Part shown: positions 6,078 through 40,854 of the stretch, in pieces | Numbering within the stretch: position 1 is the stretch's first letter | How the letters are laid out: every line of letters starts with the position of its first letter | Assembly (NCBI GenBank): GCA_024397955.1 | Contig: CP073744.1 | Span: forward strand, 1,116,001-1,180,000 | Source: a bacterium SCSIO 12696 | GTDB lineage: Bacteria; Pseudomonadota; Gammaproteobacteria; Pseudomonadales; Porticoccaceae | Length of the DNA: 64,000 nt | Reading direction: 5' to 3' | Program-made: the position numbers and the translations under genes | Notes under the pieces: model-generated | The model's input: the letters and a program-made list of their open reading frames with translations, nothing else | Databases searched by the model: none | What the model was told of the DNA's origin: nothing

Positions 6078-7175
6078 TTAAAAAGCTTTACTAAAGGTGA
6101 CGCCTCCCCACAACAGGTGACGATCGCCCAGGCCCTGTTTCAATTCCGATGATTGGCCGCGAACCATATAACTGATGCGATACCCCCCATCAAATGCCAG
6201 AGTGTATCCCGCCCAGGCTTCAACCAGGAGATGATTCACTTCACCACTGCTGTAACTGACTTCACTGTCGCGAAACTGGCCCTGCAACAGGGCGTTGTAA
6301 GCCCGGGCCTTTACTGCAGCGCCAAACCAAAAATAACGTTCTGCCTGGGTACTTACGGCTATTTCACTGCTCTGTTGGCCATAACTGGCCAAGTGGGGAT
6401 TAAAAGACCACCAGGGACTGTGAATCTCTCCCGCTCGCACATTAAAGCTCCAGGCCACTTCAGATAAATAGCCCACCGACCCTTGTACAGCGGTTTTGAC
6501 TTCCAGCCGGTCATTGTCCAGTTGCCAGTTATTCTGGCGCGATACTGCGTAGCGCGCGGTTAACTCGCCACCATCGGATATCTGGTTATTCCAACCATTG
6601 GCTTCATCACCACCCAATAAGTCATGAAGCTGGTTTTGTACGCTGCCCACCAACGGCAAACCCAACACACCCAGGGTCAGGCTGCTGTCCCAGGCAACTT
6701 CATTGTCGGCATCAATTTGCTGACGAACGCTGCTGAGATAAACCAGGCTACTGTAAGGCCGCTCGCCCTCAATAGGCTCAGCGGTTGTAATGTCTTCCGG
6801 AGTAAACGCAAACACACCGGTTTCCAGGGTAACCCGCTCCAGCCCACTATCAGCCCGATTGCTGACGCCAAATCCACGATCCAGCCAGTTCAACGCTCGA
6901 TAAGGCGAGTACCACTTACTTCGTGCCCCAGCGCCAGATAACACCAAATTAAAGCCATAGGTGTAATCACGATCGTTGGTGCCGGGAACCAAGATGTCGT
7001 TATCGAAAGAAATCGCCCACTTGCTCCAGGTAGGTTCTTGGCTAGCACTATCGCCAGCTGCCTGTACAGGTGTATCGGTAATGTAGGTGTTGGGAGAGTT
7101 GGCCGCCTCAGCACTGGCGACTGTGGGTAAGACAAAAAACGAGGAAAACAACAGGCACTGCAGTGAACTTCTCAT
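6078..7175 (-). CDS. LpxR-like outer-membrane lipid A deacylase family (DUF2219)
   Basis: 365 residues with a signal peptide (VLPTVASAEA). The mature part looks like an outer-membrane beta-barrel. Family marks are WAISFDNDILVPGTNDRDYTYGF near residue 55 (the ND pair equals catalytic Asn-Asp of LpxR), ERPYSSLVYLS, and QLHDLLG followed by GWNNQ (candidate catalytic His and GW-Q motif). LpxR removes the 3'-linked acyloxyacyl chain from lipid A; whether this member does so is inferred. It lies downstream of tetR on the same strand, with a perfect 12-bp palindrome in its promoter region. Confidence 0.8.
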   Translation of the reverse strand: MRSSLQCLLFSSFFVLPTVASAEAANSPNTYITDTPVQAAGDSASQEPTWSKWAISFDNDILVPGTNDRDYTYGFNLVLSGAGARSKWYSPYRALNWLDRGFGVSNRADSGLERVTLETGVFAFTPEDITTAEPIEGERPYSSLVYLSSVRQQIDADNEVAWDSSLTLGVLGLPLVGSVQNQLHDLLGGDEANGWNNQISDGGELTARYAVSRQNNWQLDNDRLEVKTAVQGSVGYLSEVAWSFNVRAGEIHSPWWSFNPHLASYGQQSSEIAVSTQAERYFWFGAAVKARAYNALLQGQFRDSEVSYSSGEVNHLLVEAWAGYTLAFDGGYRISYMVRGQSSELKQGLGDRHLLWGGVTFSKAF

Positions 7176-34342: not shown

Positions 34343-34759
34343 TCAGTAGCTGATGGCTGTTTCAGTATCCGTAATTGGCGTCAGTTCCAGTGCACCTTCT
34401 GGGGGATGATCACCGAAATAGAGATTGCCCTCAGCGTCCCGCCAACGGTAAATCGGGTTACTGGTTTGCGGCGTAATTTGCATATCCAGCTCCATAACCT
34501 GAAAGCTCTCTGCCGACTTCTGCTGAAGGCTCTCCGCCGACTCCTGAAGCGTGTCTGACGCATCATCAGCCAACTGGCTGGTCTTGACCTTAATCGACTC
34601 GATAGCCTCAGACACCTTTTTTGATGCCTGAGCAAACCACTGACTGGAGTTGATATTGGGTGCCGGCATTTGTCCAGTACGAAGATAAGTTGCGTAGAGG
34701 AATAGACCAAATAAGATAACGGCTAACATTATTCCCTTAACAAATAGGCGTTTTTTCAT
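34343..34759 (-). CDS. DUF4124 domain protein
   Basis: 138 residues. One N-terminal membrane helix (GIMLAVILFGLFLYATYL), a helical middle region rich in Ser, Gln and Glu, and a C-terminal DUF4124 motif YRWRDAEGNLYFGDHPPEGA, as found in many proteobacterial envelope proteins. It starts 42 bp after the last attC-like site but has no attC downstream, so I take it as the resident chromosomal gene flanking the cassette array. Confidence 0.75.
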   Translation of the reverse strand: MKKRLFVKGIMLAVILFGLFLYATYLRTGQMPAPNINSSQWFAQASKKVSEAIESIKVKTSQLADDASDTLQESAESLQQKSAESFQVMELDMQITPQTSNPIYRWRDAEGNLYFGDHPPEGALELTPITDTETAISY

Positions 34760-34800: not shown

Positions 34801-34880
34801 ATTTAACGCCCAGCTAAAAGGCGCACCGATAGGTGCATCTAGCGGAACAAAGTGGGCATTTTTGATGCTGCTTGCTAAAT
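34801..34880 (-). other. attC-like site of cassette 7
   Basis: On the minus strand it opens with TTTAGCAAGCAG (diverged R'' core, ATTTAGC) and closes with TGGGC-GTTAAAT. The middle carries GATGCACC/GGTGCG and outer TGCCCA/TGGGC pairings. It starts 3 bp past the stop codon of the PH-domain gene. Confidence 0.6.
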
Positions 34881-34883
34881 TTT

Positions 34884-35279
34884 TCAATACCCAATTACTG
34901 CTCGGAATCTTACTTTATCATTTGGAGACACCATAATTACCTTTCCATGACCATATTTAATCTCGAGGCGGTCCAGTGAGAGCGCCGGACTTGATATAGA
35001 ACTTCGGGTGTCATTTACCGAAGAAATCGAAGTAATCGGTATTATCCATGAGAAAGGGCCACTGAAAACTTTTAATTCGTCGTTTGAAACAACATATTTG
35101 GTAGACAGCAATAACCAAACTGGCAACCCAGCGCCTCCTATTACAACAGATAGCGCTAAAGCATAACTTATTAGTTGACCTTGTAGCGCAGTTATATAGG
35201 CCGCCGCCAAGCAAACCAAAATTGTTCCAACTAAAACCACTAGTAGCCAAGCATCAATCTTGGATTTGAAAATTTCCAT
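34884..35279 (-). CDS. Cassette gene: PH-domain (YyaB-like) membrane protein
   Basis: 131 residues. Two membrane helices (about 12-31 and 38-58) are followed by a small bacterial PH-like domain: WLLLSTKYVVSNDELKVFSGPFSWIIPITSISSV, then SPALSLDRLEIKYGHGKVIMVSPND, a pattern typical of the YyaB-like PH family. Role unknown. The gene starts 20 bp after the core site of the preceding attC and ends at attC 7, so it is cassette-borne. Confidence 0.8.
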   Translation of the reverse strand: MEIFKSKIDAWLLVVLVGTILVCLAAAYITALQGQLISYALALSVVIGGAGLPVWLLLSTKYVVSNDELKVFSGPFSWIIPITSISSVNDTRSSISSPALSLDRLEIKYGHGKVIMVSPNDKVRFRAVIGY

Positions 35280-35298
35280 GGCCTTTTTACCCCCTGAA

Positions 35299-35380
35299 AT
35301 TTAACGTCCTACGCACGGACAGCAAAGCTGCGTAGCGGTTTGACGTCCGAACTGCGATAGAAGCATTGTGCTGCAACCTC
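35299..35380 (-). other. attC-like site of cassette 6 (degenerate)
   Basis: The downstream core reads GGAC-GTTAAAT on the minus strand and the palindrome includes CTACGCAG ... GCGTAG. The upstream core is not clear (TTGCAGC). It directly follows the gene's stop codon. Confidence 0.45.
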
Positions 35381-35749
35381 TCAACTCTTTGGACACTTAA
35401 AATATTTAACATTTGGATAAGTCTGTTTGTTAAATAGTACTTGCTCATCGCTTGAAAGCTCAAATGTATCAGTATCTAGCCAAGTAGAGCCTTCACTTGA
35501 TGAAAGCGATATAAAAGCCACCGTATTTTGATATACGTATATCAATTTTATATCACCATAACCTTCCCACCCCTTTTTCTGGGATTCGGTTATTTCGAAA
35601 TAACTTTCAGTGATTTTTCCGCAATTTTTCTTATCCTGAGCCCAAACTCCTTGAAATCTTTCAGGAACCCTCTTTAGCTCACCAGCAGATAAGCTTAGTG
35701 AAAAGGTTATTGATAAAGCTAGGATTAAAAAGTGTTTAGTATTTTTCAT
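35381..35749 (-). CDS. Cassette gene: secreted hypothetical protein
   Basis: 122 residues with a signal peptide (FLILALSITFSLSLSA|GE). The mature part begins LKRVPERFQGVWAQDKKNCGK and has two further motifs, FELSSDEQVLF and VKYFKCPKS, with a Cys pair likely to form a disulfide. No family recognised; the W-A-x-D-x-x-x-C opening resembles small exported proteins found elsewhere. The ATG at 35749 lies 3 bp after the attC core site, a common cassette arrangement. Confidence 0.72.
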   Translation of the reverse strand: MKNTKHFLILALSITFSLSLSAGELKRVPERFQGVWAQDKKNCGKITESYFEITESQKKGWEGYGDIKLIYVYQNTVAFISLSSSEGSTWLDTDTFELSSDEQVLFNKQTYPNVKYFKCPKS

Positions 35750-35751
35750 AG

Positions 35752-35835
35752 AGTTAACGCCCTTATTTGGGGTGGACTGAGAAATGCGAACGCCACCCCG
35801 GCCCCGCAAAGGCGACCAAAATAAGCTTGTTATGT
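35752..35835 (-). other. attC site of cassette 5
   Basis: Minus strand: ACATAAC-AAGCTTATTT ... AAATAAGGGC-GTTAACT. Outer arms CTTATTT/AAATAAG and inner arms GGGGTGG/CCACCCC pair, 84 bp in all. The stop codon of the decayed cassette gene lies within the upstream core. Confidence 0.82.
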
Positions 35836-36166
35836 GCACATAAGCTTAGCATTTGCATCACTTCCAATTAACTTTCCGTTAACAAAAATATGGCAACCCC
35901 AAAAGAAGCCTGGCCACTTACTCCAAAACTTTATTTCTACCTCATAGTCAGTTCCATTCAGGGACTTAAAACAGAACAATTGCCTACAGTATTGTCTTGA
36001 ATACAGCTTCTAATGCTTTTATTGATATCGGAAACCATTTCTCAATTTCTTGCCAGAGCTCCCCTAGAGCGAAACTTAAAATCCCATTGGTTGGTAAATT
36101 CTATTGTTATCCTGTCTTACTGAGCTATCCATATTTTTCTAGGTATTTAGCAGCTCCTTTATACAC
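35830..36166 (-). pseudogene. Decayed cassette gene
   Basis: No single frame is open, but fragments in successive frames read like one protein: VYKGAAKYLEKYG from 36166, DSSVRQDNNRIYQPMGF in another frame, and a long 3' fragment RQLFCFKSLNGTDYEVEIKF, then WSKWPGFFWGCHIFVNGKLI and GSDANAKLMCT, stopping at 35830 inside the attC site. At least two frameshifts or stops must separate them. A fully separate short gene for the 3' fragment is the alternative. Confidence 0.55.
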
Positions 36167-36256
36167 AACACCTTGTTAAGGGGCGGCGCACGAAGTGTGA
36201 CGTCCCGCGGAGGCTGCGCTTTTGTAGCCGGAGTAAATTTGAGTAACTTCTTATGC
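36163..36256 (-). other. attC-like site of cassette 4
   Basis: Minus strand: GCATAAG-AAGTTACT ... CGCCGCCCCTTAACAAGGT-GTTGTGT, 94 bp, with an inner hairpin around CACACTTCGTG. The CCCTTAACAAGG stretch is typical of attC ends, while the two core sites each carry one or two changes. Confidence 0.62.
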
Positions 36257-36265
36257 ATCTGTTGT

Positions 36266-36574
36266 TTAAAAAACACCCCAAACTACCCCGACAACGACAA
36301 ACATTAAGCCGATAAAGAAAAATAATTGAATACGTGATATTTGAAGCAGCAACGAATTGAGCTTCAGGTCGCCGGATGAATAGTCAGTAGCAAAGGTGCG
36401 CAACCTTTGTAAACGAGCAAGCAGGTGAATTTTTTTATTGCTTAACCCCCAATAGTTAGCAAGTTCAGGAAAGTCCGCATTTAGCAGGCGGTTTAGAGCG
36501 ATAAGTTTGATAGTTGATACAGCACCTGCTGCGCACATCAAACATACCCCTACAACGATTAAAGTATCTTTCAT
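36266..36574 (-). CDS. Cassette gene: small membrane protein
   Basis: 102 residues with two hydrophobic segments, at the N-terminus (LIVVGVCLMCAAGAVSTIKLIAL) and the C-terminus (IQLFFFIGLMFVVVGVVWGVF), around a basic soluble loop. The ATG lies 20 bp after the core of attC 3. Unknown function. Confidence 0.68.
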   Translation of the reverse strand: MKDTLIVVGVCLMCAAGAVSTIKLIALNRLLNADFPELANYWGLSNKKIHLLARLQRLRTFATDYSSGDLKLNSLLLQISRIQLFFFIGLMFVVVGVVWGVF

Positions 36575-36593
36575 CTCATTCTTCTAGTGTTAT

Positions 36594-36665
36594 GCATAAC
36601 GCCTTGCTCACCGAAAAATTACGAGCGTAGCGAGTAATTTATCCGCCTGCAGCAACTTGTTATGG
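36594..36665 (-). other. attC site of cassette 3
   Basis: Minus strand: CCATAAC-AAGTTGCT ... GAGCAAGGC-GTTATGC, 72 bp. TTGCT/AGCAA and AAATTAC/GTAATTT pair. The stop codon of the upstream gene (36660-36662) is inside the first core site. The best-preserved site together with 35752-35835. Confidence 0.85.
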
Positions 36666-37355
36666 GTTTTCACGCTGAGCCTTCTGCTCTGCAAACCGTT
36701 TTTCCATTTCTTCTCTTTCCACCTTTCGGTCTTCGCTGGAGTACACGTCTGTTTTTACACGCTTGAAACCGCTTACGATATAGCCGATGTCCTTTTGCAT
36801 TTTTTCTATGCTCTGGGCGATGGCATACAAACTTGGCTTACCTAGTTGATAGCGGCCTTTAAGTTCACTCATATCCAGTACTATTTCTTCGGTATACTTT
36901 TTCCCCGTCGCACTTTTGTAACTAAGCTTGAAAGACAAAATTGAAGATGATTTTCCTTCGAAATCTTCTGTCGTTTGGGTATAGGTAGAGTAGATATTCT
37001 GGCCTGGTCCAAAATGACGAAGGCCTGTTCTAAAGAAGTTAGACTCGGTAAACTCACCAAGAAGCTTCTCTGCTGACTCTCCGCCCTCTATAACAGCTGG
37101 CTCAAATTGCAGATCACTAGCGGGACCGAATCCAATGTTTTGGATATTTAGACGAATTATATGAACAGCAAACTCAAAGCTGTCGATTGTGATATGTATT
37201 TTTGGCTCCGTTTGTACTTCCCTCATTTTTCTAGTTTCGGAAACGAGAAGCCCAGTGAGGATTGCATAGACGACGGTAGAGAGCGTAACAACAGCAGTAA
37301 ATATTACTATCAATGCTTCTGAATTCTGTTTAAGAAAGCTTAATATCTCAGTCAA
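36660..37355 (-). CDS. Cassette gene: membrane-anchored hypothetical protein
   Basis: 231 residues from a TTG start with AGGAG seven bases upstream. One N-terminal membrane helix (ALIVIFTAVVTLSTVVYAILTGLLV), then a soluble domain with beta-rich middle (KIHITIDSFEFAVHIIRLNIQNIGFGPASDL) and a charged C-terminal helix (VEREEMEKRFAEQKAQ). Similar single-pass proteins are frequent in accessory DNA; no function can be assigned. Confidence 0.7.
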   Translation of the reverse strand: MTEILSFLKQNSEALIVIFTAVVTLSTVVYAILTGLLVSETRKMREVQTEPKIHITIDSFEFAVHIIRLNIQNIGFGPASDLQFEPAVIEGGESAEKLLGEFTESNFFRTGLRHFGPGQNIYSTYTQTTEDFEGKSSSILSFKLSYKSATGKKYTEEIVLDMSELKGRYQLGKPSLYAIAQSIEKMQKDIGYIVSGFKRVKTDVYSSEDRKVEREEMEKRFAEQKAQRENP

Positions 37356-37366
37356 CTAATAACTCC

Positions 37367-37430
37367 TTTTAACTCATAATACCCCGCGCAGCCTCTTAGG
37401 AGCGGAGTGAATTTGACCGGCTTGTTATGT
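37367..37430 (-). other. attC-like site of cassette 2 (degenerate)
   Basis: Minus strand begins well with ACATAAC-AAGCCGGTCAAATT and has CTCCGCTCC/GAGG-type pairing, but the closing core is poor (GTTAAAA or GTATTATG). 64 bp if GTTAAAA is the core. Confidence 0.5.
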
Positions 37431-37730
37431 GTTTGGGTAGAATACAAGACAGCTACCGTCCTTAAGCGCACCTTCGTAAAAATCACTAAAGCCCTTATGA
37501 AGATCAGAGTTCAAGACTTCAACTTTTAAGCCATTACCTTTTAAGCCGTTAACACCTTCAAACCCGAAGTTACTAATTTCCTTTGTAGCAGCCTCGAAAT
37601 CGACAGCTTCTTTTGCTTGTCGAAGAAAAAGTAAACCGTCGTGATTAGCTCCTTTCTCTGGAGAGTCCCAGTTGTATGCTGACTTTCCCGAGTAAGTACC
37701 ATTAAAACCGTAGAGATATACTTTTTCCAT
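37425..37730 (-). CDS. Cassette gene: hypothetical protein
   Basis: 101 residues, soluble, no signal peptide, acidic. Visible stretches are YLYGFNGTYSGKSAYNWDSP, FLRQAKEAVDFEAATKEI and LKDGSCLVFYPNT. No family recognised. The ATG is 7 bp after the core of attC 1; the stop codon falls inside the first core of attC 2. Confidence 0.68.
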   Translation of the reverse strand: MEKVYLYGFNGTYSGKSAYNWDSPEKGANHDGLLFLRQAKEAVDFEAATKEISNFGFEGVNGLKGNGLKVEVLNSDLHKGFSDFYEGALKDGSCLVFYPNT

Positions 37731-37737
37731 TACTTAC

Positions 37738-37796
37738 ACATAACGCCTAAAGCAGCGGGCGACGCTTGCGGCGTCCGCTGCCTTTACTGGTTAAGT
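37738..37796 (-). other. attC site of cassette 1
   Basis: 59 bp. Minus strand: ACTTAAC (exact RYYYAAC) ... AAAGGCAGCGGACGC, loop, GCGTCGCCCGCTGCTTT, then GTTATGT. The arms pair almost completely, giving the classic 59-base-element fold. Confidence 0.85.
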
Positions 37797-38091
37797 GGCT
37801 ACTCTCTTCATACGCTAAGAAATAGTACAAAACTGAAGCAATTGGTGGCATAAACGCTATTGCAAAGAACCACAACCACTTTTTGTTTGAAATTGTATTG
37901 AATAGCATTCCAAAAGTAACAATAAATAAGGGAGCTACAATAGCTACTAGTGCAAAAACAAATAGAGTTTTTGTAATAACACTTTCAAAGTTATCAATAC
38001 CAACCCCCCATTCTGTCGTGATGGTTAGATTGACTAAAAGACAAACAACCATAAAAACAGTTGAATGAATTGCACAATATTTTTGAATCAT
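37747..38091 (-). CDS. Cassette gene: small membrane protein running into its attC
   Basis: 114 residues from the ATG at 38091, 7 bp after a core site GTTAAGT (38098-38104) that marks the first cassette boundary. Three hydrophobic segments (about 10-25, 40-62, 74-92). The frame has no stop before the attC, so the last 17 residues (SHLTSKGSGRRKRRPLL), basic and unlike the rest, are encoded by the recombination site itself. Function unknown. Confidence 0.62.
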   Translation of the reverse strand: MIQKYCAIHSTVFMVVCLLVNLTITTEWGVGIDNFESVITKTLFVFALVAIVAPLFIVTFGMLFNTISNKKWLWFFAIAFMPPIASVLYYFLAYEESSHLTSKGSGRRKRRPLL

Positions 38092-38158
38092 AGTTCCACT
38101 TAACAGCTTTATTATGACGCATGGCCAGATGTAGGCATTCCCATATCTGACCATATCA

Positions 38159-40792
38159 CTATCCTAAAAACACAATGCGTTCTCCATCCAACTCGACCCG
38201 CACTGTATCTCCCGGCGCAAAGCGCCCGGCTAGAATTTCCTGAGCCAAAGGGTTTTCCAGCAGCTTCTGAATCGCGCGTTTTAGCGGCCTTGCGCCATAA
38301 ACTGGATCAAAGCCTGCCTCTACTAATTGTTCCATTACAGCGTCGCTGATTTCCAAGCCCAGCTCTCGCTCTGCAAGGCGTTTGCGCAGGCCCGCCAGCT
38401 GGATATCAGCAATGCCTTTGATTTGCTCTTTACCCAGGGGATGGAATACCACCGCTTCGTCGATGCGGTTGATAAATTCCGGACGGAAGTGCATACCGAC
38501 AACTTCCATCACTTTTTCGCGGATCACTTCCTGTCTGTTCTCGTTTTCTATTGAATCGTCGAGCTCTAGCTCGCCATCAAAGCTGACCGTATCGTAGGAG
38601 CGATCGTTAACCAGGTTCTGGATCACATCAGAGCCCAGGTTAGAGGTCATCACCACTACGGTATTGCGGAAGTCCACGGTGCGGCCCTGGCCGTCGGTCA
38701 ATCTACCATCTTCCAGCACTTGCAGCAGAATATTGAACACATCCGCGTGGGCTTTTTCCACTTCGTCAAGCAGCAAAACCGAGTAGGGTTTACGGCGCAC
38801 CGCTTCGGTGAGGTAACCGCCCTCTTCGTAACCCACGTAGCCGGGAGGGGCACCGATCAGGCGAGCTACGGAGTGTTTTTCCATAAACTCTGACATATCG
38901 ATACGTACCATGGCTTCTTCGGTATCGAACAAAAACTCCGCCAGAGATTTACAAAGTTCGGTTTTACCGACACCGGTTGGCCCCAAAAACAGGAAGGAGC
39001 CGTTGGGGCGGTTAGGATCAGAAAGACCAGCGCGGGAGCGACGCACGGCGTTTGATACCGCCACCACTGCTTCGCTTTGGCCAACGACACGCTGGTGCAA
39101 AAAGTCTTCCATGCGCAGCAGTTTGTCCCGCTCCCCTTCCAGCATTTTGGCGACGGGAATGCCGGTCCATTTGGAAACCACTTCGGCGATTTCTTCGTCG
39201 GTGACCTTATTGCGCAGTAACTGTTTTTCCTCGGTCTCTGCTTGTGAGGCAGCACTCAGTTGTTTTTCCAGTTCGGGAATTTTACCGTACTGCAACTCAG
39301 ACATTTTCGCCAAATCGCCAGCGCGGTGGGCGGCATCCAGCTCCAAGCGCGCCTGTTCCAGATCACTTTTGATTTGCGTGGCGCCCTGTACCGAGGCTTT
39401 TTCCGCTTTCCAGATTTCTTCCAGGTCGGCGTACTCTTTTTCCACCTCGGCAATATCAGTGTTTAATTTTTCCAAGCGCTTTTGCGCCGCTTCGTCATCG
39501 TCTTTTTTTACCGCTTCCCGTTCGATCTTGAGTTGAATCAAACGACGGTCAAGGCGATCCATGGATTCCGGTTTGGAGTCGATTTCCATACGGATACGAC
39601 TCGCCGCCTCGTCGATCAGGTCGATGGCTTTGTCCGGCAGTTGTCGGTCGGTGATATAGCGCTGCGATAGCTTGGCTGCGGCCACCAGAGCAGAGTCGTT
39701 AATCTCCACCCCATGATGCACTTCGTAGCGCTCTTTCAGGCCACGCAAAATAGCGATAGTGTCTTCTTCGCTCGGTTCATCCACCAATACCTTTTGAAAG
39801 CGGCGCTCAAGGGCGGCATCTTTCTCAATAAATTGGCGGTACTCATCCAAGGTGGTAGCACCCACACAGTGCAGCTCGCCGCGAGCCAGAGCGGGCTTGA
39901 GCATATTACCCGCATCCATAGCGCCTTCGGCTTTACCGGCACCTACCATGGTGTGCAGTTCATCGATAAACAAGATAATGCGGCCTTCCTGTTTCGACAG
40001 TTCATTGAGCACTGCCTTCAGGCGCTCTTCAAAGTCACCACGGAATTTCGCTCCCGCCAACAGTGCGCCCAAATCCAGGGATAGGATGCGCTTGTCTTTT
40101 AGGCCTTCCGGTACTTCGCCATTGATGATACGCAAGGCCATGCCTTCGGCGATGGCGGTTTTACCCACACCGGGTTCGCCAATCAGTACCGGGTTATTTT
40201 TGGTGCGCCGTTGCAATACCTGGATGGTGCGGCGGATTTCTTCATCGCGACCAATTACCGGGTCCAGCTTGCCCTGTTCGGCACGCTCGGTGAGGTCGAT
40301 AGTGTACTTATCCAGCGCATGACGATTGCCTTCCGCTTCCGGGTTGTTCACGTTTTCACCTCCGCGCACATCTGCTATCGCCTGCTGCAGTTGTTGTTTG
40401 TTGCCGTAGTGATTCAGTGCCTTGCTAACGTCAGAGCGATCGTCAAAGGCCGCCAGCAACACCGTTTCACTGGCAATATATTGGTCGCCCTGCTGCTGGG
40501 CAAGTTTGTCCGCCAGGTTAAACCAGCGGCCCAAGTCCGCGGACAGGCCCACTTCACCGGTAGGACTTTGTATACGCGCGACCCGTTCCAGCTGTTGTTC
40601 AAGGTCTGCTTGCAAGCCTGCCAAATCAAAACCCGCCTTGGCCAGTAACGGACGCACTGCCCCACCCTGCTGATTAAGCAAGGCCAACAGCAGGTGTACC
40701 GGTTCGATGGCATTGTTATCACGCCCTACTGCCAGTGATTGAGCATCGGCCAGAGCCGCTTGCAGGGAATTGGTAAATTTGTCGATGCGCAT
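38159..40792 (-). CDS. clpB: ATP-dependent chaperone ClpB
   Basis: 877 residues. Hexameric Hsp100 disaggregase that works with DnaK. N-domain from [18 protein letters not shown]; first ATPase [13 protein letters not shown] and [15 protein letters not shown]; long coiled-coil M-domain (about 410-525, [18 protein letters not shown]); second ATPase [14 protein letters not shown] and [15 protein letters not shown]; end [16 protein letters not shown]. The ATG at 40792 fits the family start; the frame opens at 40840. Preceded by a sigma-32 promoter. Confidence 0.97.
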
Positions 40793-40825
40793 GGAATTGC
40801 CCCAAAAATCTATCTTATGAATGAG

Positions 40826-40854
40826 AGATAGGGGCGGCAATGGGGGTTTTCAAG
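40826..40854 (-). promoter_or_regulatory. Sigma-32 heat-shock promoter of clpB
   Basis: Minus strand: CTTGAAA (40854-40848), 13-bp spacer, CCCCTATCT (40834-40826), matching the CTTGAAA-N13-15-CCCCATnT consensus with one substitution. It lies 34 bp upstream of the clpB ATG. Confidence 0.88.

Follow-up and report, generated by a model that had tools for sequence, protein, structure and literature searches.

The 64-kb stretch of DNA analysed here (the window) contains, between clpB and a gene for a DUF4124 protein, a row of small genes alternating with palindromic sites, and it raises two questions: what kind of element this is, and how it came to stand beside clpB. The first has a plain answer. 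The row is a seven-cassette CALIN, an already known kind of element, because two or more attC sites lie in a row in the same orientation with no adjacent integrase; an earlier note had called it so, and the reading is upheld by attC sites found with a covariance model, by the chained ends of the cassettes and by the lack of an adjacent intI. As to the features of a complete integron, an intI and an attI at the head, neither was found on the clpB side. The note's statement that there is no integrase holds beside the array but not for the genome, where the genome-wide search that it had proposed found a full-length intI once, at C1:61139-62077 (402 bits, the only match above cut-off), 1.09 Mb from the array. 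Together with an attI and 30 attC sites this gene forms a complete integron at C1:61.1-77.5 kb (the resident integron), adjoining what we take to be purL.

The attC sites and cassettes beside clpB

An attC covariance model, R1, was trained on 25 sites of the resident integron, all of them beyond the window (C1:62.8-77.5 kb), and run on both strands of the full 64 kb with filters off. It returned ten rows, six of them array sites on the - strand, and matches up to E = 4 were confined to the array. Three array sites scored below E 1e-4 and four below 0.02, so that the two attC sites which the earlier note had expected such a model to find at the least were recovered. Of the remaining four rows, two are the two strands of an AT palindrome within the array (35404-35435; E 2 and 8.4), and the last two lie elsewhere in the window (E 4.7 and 5.8). 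Across the genome, with 150 of 640 candidates scored, R1 gave 45 matches with E no higher than 5, of which 30 belong to the resident integron (the 25 training sites among them) and 15 to five satellite arrays, that at clpB included; none lies elsewhere. The model is tuned to the genus: of 14 family genomes tried, 3 were without a match at E 0.05, and one of these (G003) has an intI above cut-off. A first pattern scan, with 7 and 6 window matches per strand, many of them due to chance, was superseded by R1, and Rfam at gathering scores reported nothing but a tRNA.

All the features lie on the - strand, downstream of clpB (38159..40840, Pfam ClpB domains). The cassette 1 gene (37747..38091, 114 aa) is an open reading frame for which Pfam gave nothing above cut-off, and hydrophobic segments were seen by eye in its product; the gene runs at the 3' end into the intact attC1 (37738..37796; 43.1 bits, E 6e-8), which forms R and L stems when its bottom strand is folded (z -2.8). 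The cassette 2 gene (37425..37730, 101 aa), recognised by its family relatives, is followed by the short and decayed attC2 (37374..37430; 10.3 bits, E 4.7; also placed by the chain rule described below), in which the R' core is ATT instead of GTT, and a part of which is 84% alike over 44 bp to a site of satellite A. The cassette 3 gene (36660..37355, 231 aa, TTG start), supported by relatives and a structure model, precedes the intact attC3 (36594..36665; 31.6 bits, E 3e-5), with a full R stem in its fold (z -1.9). Cassette 4 carries an open reading frame (36266..36574, 102 aa) without a family match in Pfam, PADLOC and other family searches, and ends in the decayed attC4 (36163..36256; 17.0 bits, E 0.11; chain rule), whose R'' ends in AAG. 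Cassette 5 (35836..36162) has stops in all three frames of the cassette strand and thus no intact reading frame; its attC5 (35752..35835; 65.5 bits, E 2e-13) is intact and the nearest to the resident type (78% alike to one resident site over 83 bp), and forms R and L stems, yet with a z of only -1.1. The cassette 6 gene (35381..35749, 122 aa) encodes a protein that by eye is likely secreted. The site after it, attC6 (35299..35386), has kept GTT and has a decayed R'' (GAG for AAC); it was missed by R1 in the window scan and was placed by eye from its likeness to the resident site C1:64461 and by the chain rule, which was in view when its 5' limit was fixed. The cassette 7 gene (34884..35279, 131 aa) encodes a bacterial PH domain (PF06713, 73.7 bits), and attC7 (34801..34880; 21.0 bits, E 0.012; chain rule), with AGC for AAC in a decayed R'', ends the array before the DUF4124 gene (34343..34759; PF13511, 22.1 bits against a cut-off of 22).

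Three sites are thus intact and four decayed. The seven small same-strand genes of the earlier note are seven cassettes with six intact reading frames; its AAC and GTT cores are both present in 3/7 sites, as against 29 of 30 listed resident sites, a list biased to canonical ones; and of its 59-94 bp for the palindromes the upper figure stands, the range being 57-94 bp. GC content is 40.7% in the array against 51.1% in the window. With damage in four of its seven sites, and with one cassette that lacks an intact gene, the array is, to judge from its sequence, largely fossil now.

Under the chain rule, the R'' box of each attC should be complementary to the 5' end of the cassette to which that attC belongs. 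The seven links offer 28 variable positions, of which 26 pair, and 2 of 5040 orderings do as well, the true order included. Since the R'' of attC6 had been set with the rule in view, the test was repeated without that site: 22 of 24 positions pair, and 2 of 720 orderings equal this.

Conservation like that of ordinary chromosome, which the earlier note had held to speak against a CALIN, is not seen, as both sister genomes lack attC at this place. Between clpB and the DUF4124 gene of G002 (L022) none is significant (best E 1.4 in 19 kb), and the interval holds 1.17 kb of other genes; a candidate attC remnant there (8.2 bits, E 4.5) was rejected as not significant. G001 (L041) has another gene after clpB and no attC with an E of 2 or lower. 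The four damaged sites, and folding that is clearly better than shuffles in sites 1 and 3 only, might suggest a plain gene cluster whose gaps are palindromic by chance, but this reading is refuted by R1 E-values down to 2e-13, by the chain rule and by these sister genomes, and we give it next to no probability.

Cargo of the cassettes

The suggestion that the array stores defence, toxin or stress functions found no support: none of the six intact proteins matches a PADLOC defence family (E 0.01), and the PH domain is the one Pfam match above cut-off. TIR and Mrr-type genes are present in other satellites of the genome. Apart from itself, the cassette 2 protein has three relatives at 71-76% identity, of which two carry the name Microbulbifer; among 390 genomes sampled from the order, this one alone has it. 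The cassette 3 protein has 214 relatives with up to 96% identity, and members of its 231-aa family are also named in Shewanella, Aeromonas, Vibrio and Halomonas; a search for relatives near attC sites gave no match in plasmids and 0/16 stretches in viral contigs. Its predicted structure is a long N-terminal helix followed by beta strands (pLDDT 80, pTM 0.53). The best solved chain by sequence is a designed coiled coil (E 9e-6), and the best Foldseek match, an adaptin-type GAE domain (E 1.1e-3), was discarded as not usable at a TM of 0.27.

The search for the same cassettes elsewhere, also suggested by the earlier note, yielded a copy of cassette 6 in satellite E (C1:2782790-2783184, 88% DNA identity over 395 bp, with a different attC); no other cassette has a copy among the loci compared. 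The pair is old (dS 0.41, dN/dS 0.15), and hence no recent copying is seen. No terminator-like site was found from 38091 to 38159, in a scan that overall did no better than shuffles (7 vs 7.7); because the genes lie on the clpB strand with no such signal between, the array may be transcribed by read-through from clpB.

The head of the array and its origin

By the chain rule the head junction falls at 38104: GTTAAGT (38098..38104, - strand) pairs at 7/7 positions with the R'' box of attC1, and cassette 1 begins after its G, which lies 55 bp past the clpB stop. Likeness to G002 ends 28 bp before the junction. The head resembles neither of the genus's two known attI types (P 0.34 and 0.61), while in satellites A, C and D the same test recovers the type expected there (0/500 shuffles each). 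The junction has one feature expected of an array founded at attG, a GTT in chromosomal DNA without an attI of these two types; insertion at attG requires such a GTT. Insertions of this kind, with cassettes at chromosomal sites lacking attI, were reportedly described by Loot et al. (2024).

Our preferred account, to which we give an even chance, is that an integron integrase acted in trans at a site other than attI, setting cassettes next to clpB, and that the array is now decaying. The integrase, resident or a lost predecessor, would have inserted the first cassette at the chromosomal, attG-type GTT after clpB, and further cassettes would have been added by recombination at the founding site or at the attC of the first cassette. 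In favour are the attC sites found by an independent model, the chain rule, the head junction with no attI, the full-length intI in the genome, the sister genomes without attC and the cassette 6 copy in satellite E. Against it count the want of a clean empty site, given the other genes in G002 and the likeness to G002 that ends short of the junction, the several insertions that seven cassettes need, the age of the cassette 6 pair, a head 8-mer that could be an attI remnant (see below), and the attI relics heading eight other orphan arrays in the three genomes (A, C, D, four of G001 and one of G002), which point to integrase loss.

A remnant of a complete integron from which intI and attI were deleted is a close rival, which we rate as possible at somewhat under an even chance. 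Loss of the integrase is also what satellites A, C and D seem to have undergone. A 28-aa start of intI survives in L044 of G001, and satellite D matches G002 DNA to about 100 bp into the G002 intI ORF, although no intI piece was detected in D by tblastn. The decay of the attC sites fits an old remnant, and the eight head bases AGCTGTTA equal the core of 3/7 attI type II copies and could be a remnant of that type, although such an 8-mer is hardly rare (the window has 2 copies, where 1.95 are expected). Yet neither intI nor attI sequence stands at the head, and the deletion must have ended within 28 bp of the first junction with the exact GTTAAGT kept.

Arrival of the cassettes as a block, whether by ordinary rearrangement or by transfer of part of an array, without any integrase having acted at clpB, might be entertained, since gene order differs between the sister genomes and satellite flanks map to several places; we consider it quite improbable, as the head junction is a recombination point and only cassette 6 has a copy among the loci compared.

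Returning to insertion in trans, two integrase/attI types occupy the same locus in sister species (integrases 49% identical), and relic attI heads three satellites while the clpB array and one other show none; in satellite E no 5' end matching the first cassette was found, and the attI test there used a guessed stretch. We tentatively propose, at somewhat less than an even chance, that the genus sheds arrays as integron platforms turn over, leaving orphans headed by attI relics of either type beside attI-less arrays founded de novo at attG-type sites, that at clpB included. If so, orphan arrays would have two origins, distinguishable by their heads.

The array among known systems

The resident integron and the clpB array share the same attC family, and only the former has intI and attI. 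Like attG insertions, the array begins at a GTT without attI, with the difference that the putative insertion here would concern an array of seven cassettes. It is a candidate natural example of an orphan array with no sign of a former integrase, and its relatives help to ask whether orphan arrays arise by integrase loss or by new insertion; integrase loss or translocation is named as the current paradigm in a review (PMC11389934). The attI relics, which sort arrays into those once adjoined by an integrase and those with no sign of one, were found because sister species were compared; IntegronFinder 2.0 misses attI outside class 1 (PMC9024848). Its survey counted 2961 CALIN and 2760 complete integrons, about equally common (PMC9024848), and an average of almost 6 attC per CALIN has been reported. 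In Xanthomonas (PMC12444791), CALINs likewise occupy several sites on the chromosome other than the canonical locus, there ilvD, but their positions are relatively conserved across species, whereas the five satellites here have no attC at the matching G002 flanks. From known CALINs the clpB array differs in nothing essential; it is a partly decayed one, with an integrase elsewhere in its genome.

Layout and end pairing of the window array

Between clpB (38159-40840, minus strand) and a DUF4124 gene (34343-34759, minus strand), the array at 34801-38104 comprises seven cassettes on the minus strand, each followed by an attC site; the seven small same-strand genes counted in the earlier note reduce to six that are intact, with one cassette lacking an intact gene. 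To avoid circularity, the sites were scored with R1, a covariance model built from 25 attC sites of the array resident in the same genome (28 had been listed by pattern and 3 left out). When the whole window was scanned with filters off, the top five R1 rows all lay on the minus strand at sites that the note had proposed, three of them beyond doubt and the others at E-values of 0.012 and 0.11. In the same scan the sixth site was at chance level (E 4.7), the seventh was not picked up, and just two matches fell outside the array (E 4.7 and 5.8).

A chain rule that is independent of R1 states that whatever follows a GTT cut in a true array is the start of the next cassette, and that these bases complement the R'' box of the attC which that cassette carries. 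Across the 29 links of the resident array all 7 positions pair in 23, six in 5 and five in 1, and the observed total at the variable positions was reached by none of 10,000 shuffles. The seven links of the window array, including its head, pair at 7, 7, 5, 6, 6, 5 and 6 positions; 26 of 28 variable positions are paired, a count reached by two of the 5040 orderings (one being the true order). The R'' box of attC6 was placed with this rule in view, and when it is omitted 22 of 24 variable positions still pair (equalled in 2 of 720 orderings). By the same rule the head of the array falls at GTTAAGT at 38104, 55 bp beyond the clpB stop.

Site decay and cargo

Both cores are retained in three of the seven window sites; the GTT of R' is gone from attC2, and the R'' boxes of attC4, attC6 and attC7 are damaged. 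Folding of the recombining strand agrees with this core state: attC1, 3 and 5 form the R and L stems, attC2 retains the outer stem, and the canonical stem is lacking in attC4, 6 and 7. Only attC1 (z -2.8) and attC3 (z -1.9) clearly stand out from shuffles, attC5 reaching z -1.1. In the resident array both cores are present in 29 of 30 sites, on a list derived mainly from a canonical-site scan, from which at least one decayed-looking attC near 75.28 kb is absent.

The defence cargo that had been expected finds no support in this array: a PADLOC search at E 0.01 gave no match for any of its six proteins. Cassette 3 (36660-37355) encodes a 231-aa protein of a widespread family that has, for this member, no Pfam match, matches phrog_11802 (E 7.5e-19) and has 214 relatives at up to 96% identity; among the 120 listed, most of them without a name, are Shewanella, Aeromonas, Vibrio, Halomonas, Aliivibrio, Achromobacter and Agrobacterium, a patchy distribution that would be consistent with a travelling cassette gene. 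Cassette 6 recurs in another orphan array, satellite E (88% DNA identity, a different attC, dN/dS 0.15), and has five further relatives; cassette 7 encodes a bacterial PH domain. As the array shares the strand of clpB, with no terminator-like signal between them, read-through from clpB is possible. Elsewhere in the genome, satellites C, D and A carry genes for a TIR protein (L019:4377-4835), a TIR-TM protein (L020:8546-9379) and an Mrr-type nuclease (L018:7287-8051), respectively, which are likely to be defence genes.

Integrases, orphan arrays and attI relics in the genus

The reported lack of an integrase holds beside the window array and fails for the genome, in which a full-length intI lies at C1:61139-62077 (402 bits; cut-off 265), followed by attI and 30 attC matches up to 77.5 kb. 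Genome-wide, R1 at E up to 5 gave 45 matches, namely these 30 and 15 in five satellites: A (C1:920.7-923.3 kb, 5), B, the window array (2), C (C1:1533.3-1533.9 kb, 2), D (C1:1927.4-1929.7 kb, 3) and E (C1:2782.7-2784.2 kb, 3). The scan covered 150 of 640 candidates, and the good window site attC3 escaped it, so that weaker sites may be absent.

In the sister genome G002 a complete integron occupies the place of the resident one, with 5.1 kb shared at 87% identity, including a gene that we take from its sequence to be purL. Cassette DNA is partly common to both (91% over 429 bp, 83% over 410 bp), but the integrases (L009:11055-12182 and L023:5467-6441) are only 49% identical and their attI types differ; hence the integrase-attI unit seems to have been exchanged in place at a fixed locus.

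Our genome also holds arrays bearing the attI type of the G002 integrase. The head of satellite C (L019 5232-5390) is related to the resident attI (type I), and those of A (L018 8062-8210) and D (L020 9377-9647) to the G002 attI (type II), all without intI; the match in D runs on for about 100 bp inside the G002 intI ORF, though tblastn found no intI piece there. The two sister genomes have relics too: those of type I, without intI, are near 411 kb in G001 and on G002 contigs C53 (two) and C14, and those of type II near 492, 1368 and 2089 kb in G001 and on G002 C13. Eight relics, including those of A, C and D, head an array with attC matches, while R1 at E up to 2 gave no attC in the stretches fetched around the C13 and C14 relics and the second one on C53. 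In G001 no gene reaches the integrase cut-off, yet six attC places are present; near one of its arrays is a short remnant resembling intI (L045:7943-8089; 41% over 49 aa), perhaps of a third integrase type.

Origin of the window array

The head of the window array resembles neither attI type (P 0.34 and 0.61), whereas the identical test recovered the expected type in satellites A, C and D, none of 500 shuffles doing as well. Satellite E likewise shows no attI likeness over a guessed head stretch. Just upstream of this satellite, at L021 ~6167-6245 (C1:2782167-2782245), lies a dispersed ~75-bp repeat for which G001 and G002 give more than 30 matches.

Conservation of genes and gaps in order, as in ordinary chromosome, was not seen: the best R1 match at the G002 clpB locus (19 kb) has E 1.4, and a Fic/Doc-family gene, together with a small gene judged by eye to be lipoprotein-like, lies in the gap between clpB and DUF4124 there. 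In G001 the gene after clpB differs. At E up to 2, R1 detected no attC in the G002 stretches matching A, C, D and E (L036, L037, L039) or in the G001 stretches matching A, B, C and E (L051, L041, L038, L040). Given the lack of significant attC in the matching G002 stretches, the five satellites are not seen at those places, though the relatives do not show clean empty sites there. At the place of satellite E, G002 has GTTAA beside the matching gene end, which is suggestive only.

The head junction, the missing attI and the fact that the array is not seen in the sister genomes all fit a founding event in which an integron integrase would have inserted cassettes beside clpB in trans, at a non-attI site, and we give this reading an even chance of being correct. 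The array might instead be the remnant of an integron that lost both intI and attI, an alternative that is nearly as probable, is favoured by the eight orphan arrays in the genus that begin with an attI relic, and has to reckon with a head unlike either attI type. Among the titles listed in our limited search of open-licence literature none was on attI-headed orphan arrays, which is not proof of absence. As for founding in trans, the insertion of cassettes at non-attI sites is possible for integron integrases, as cited in PMC12444791, PMC12901181 and PMC11389934, where Loot et al. 2024 is referred to; PMC9024848 was drawn on as well.
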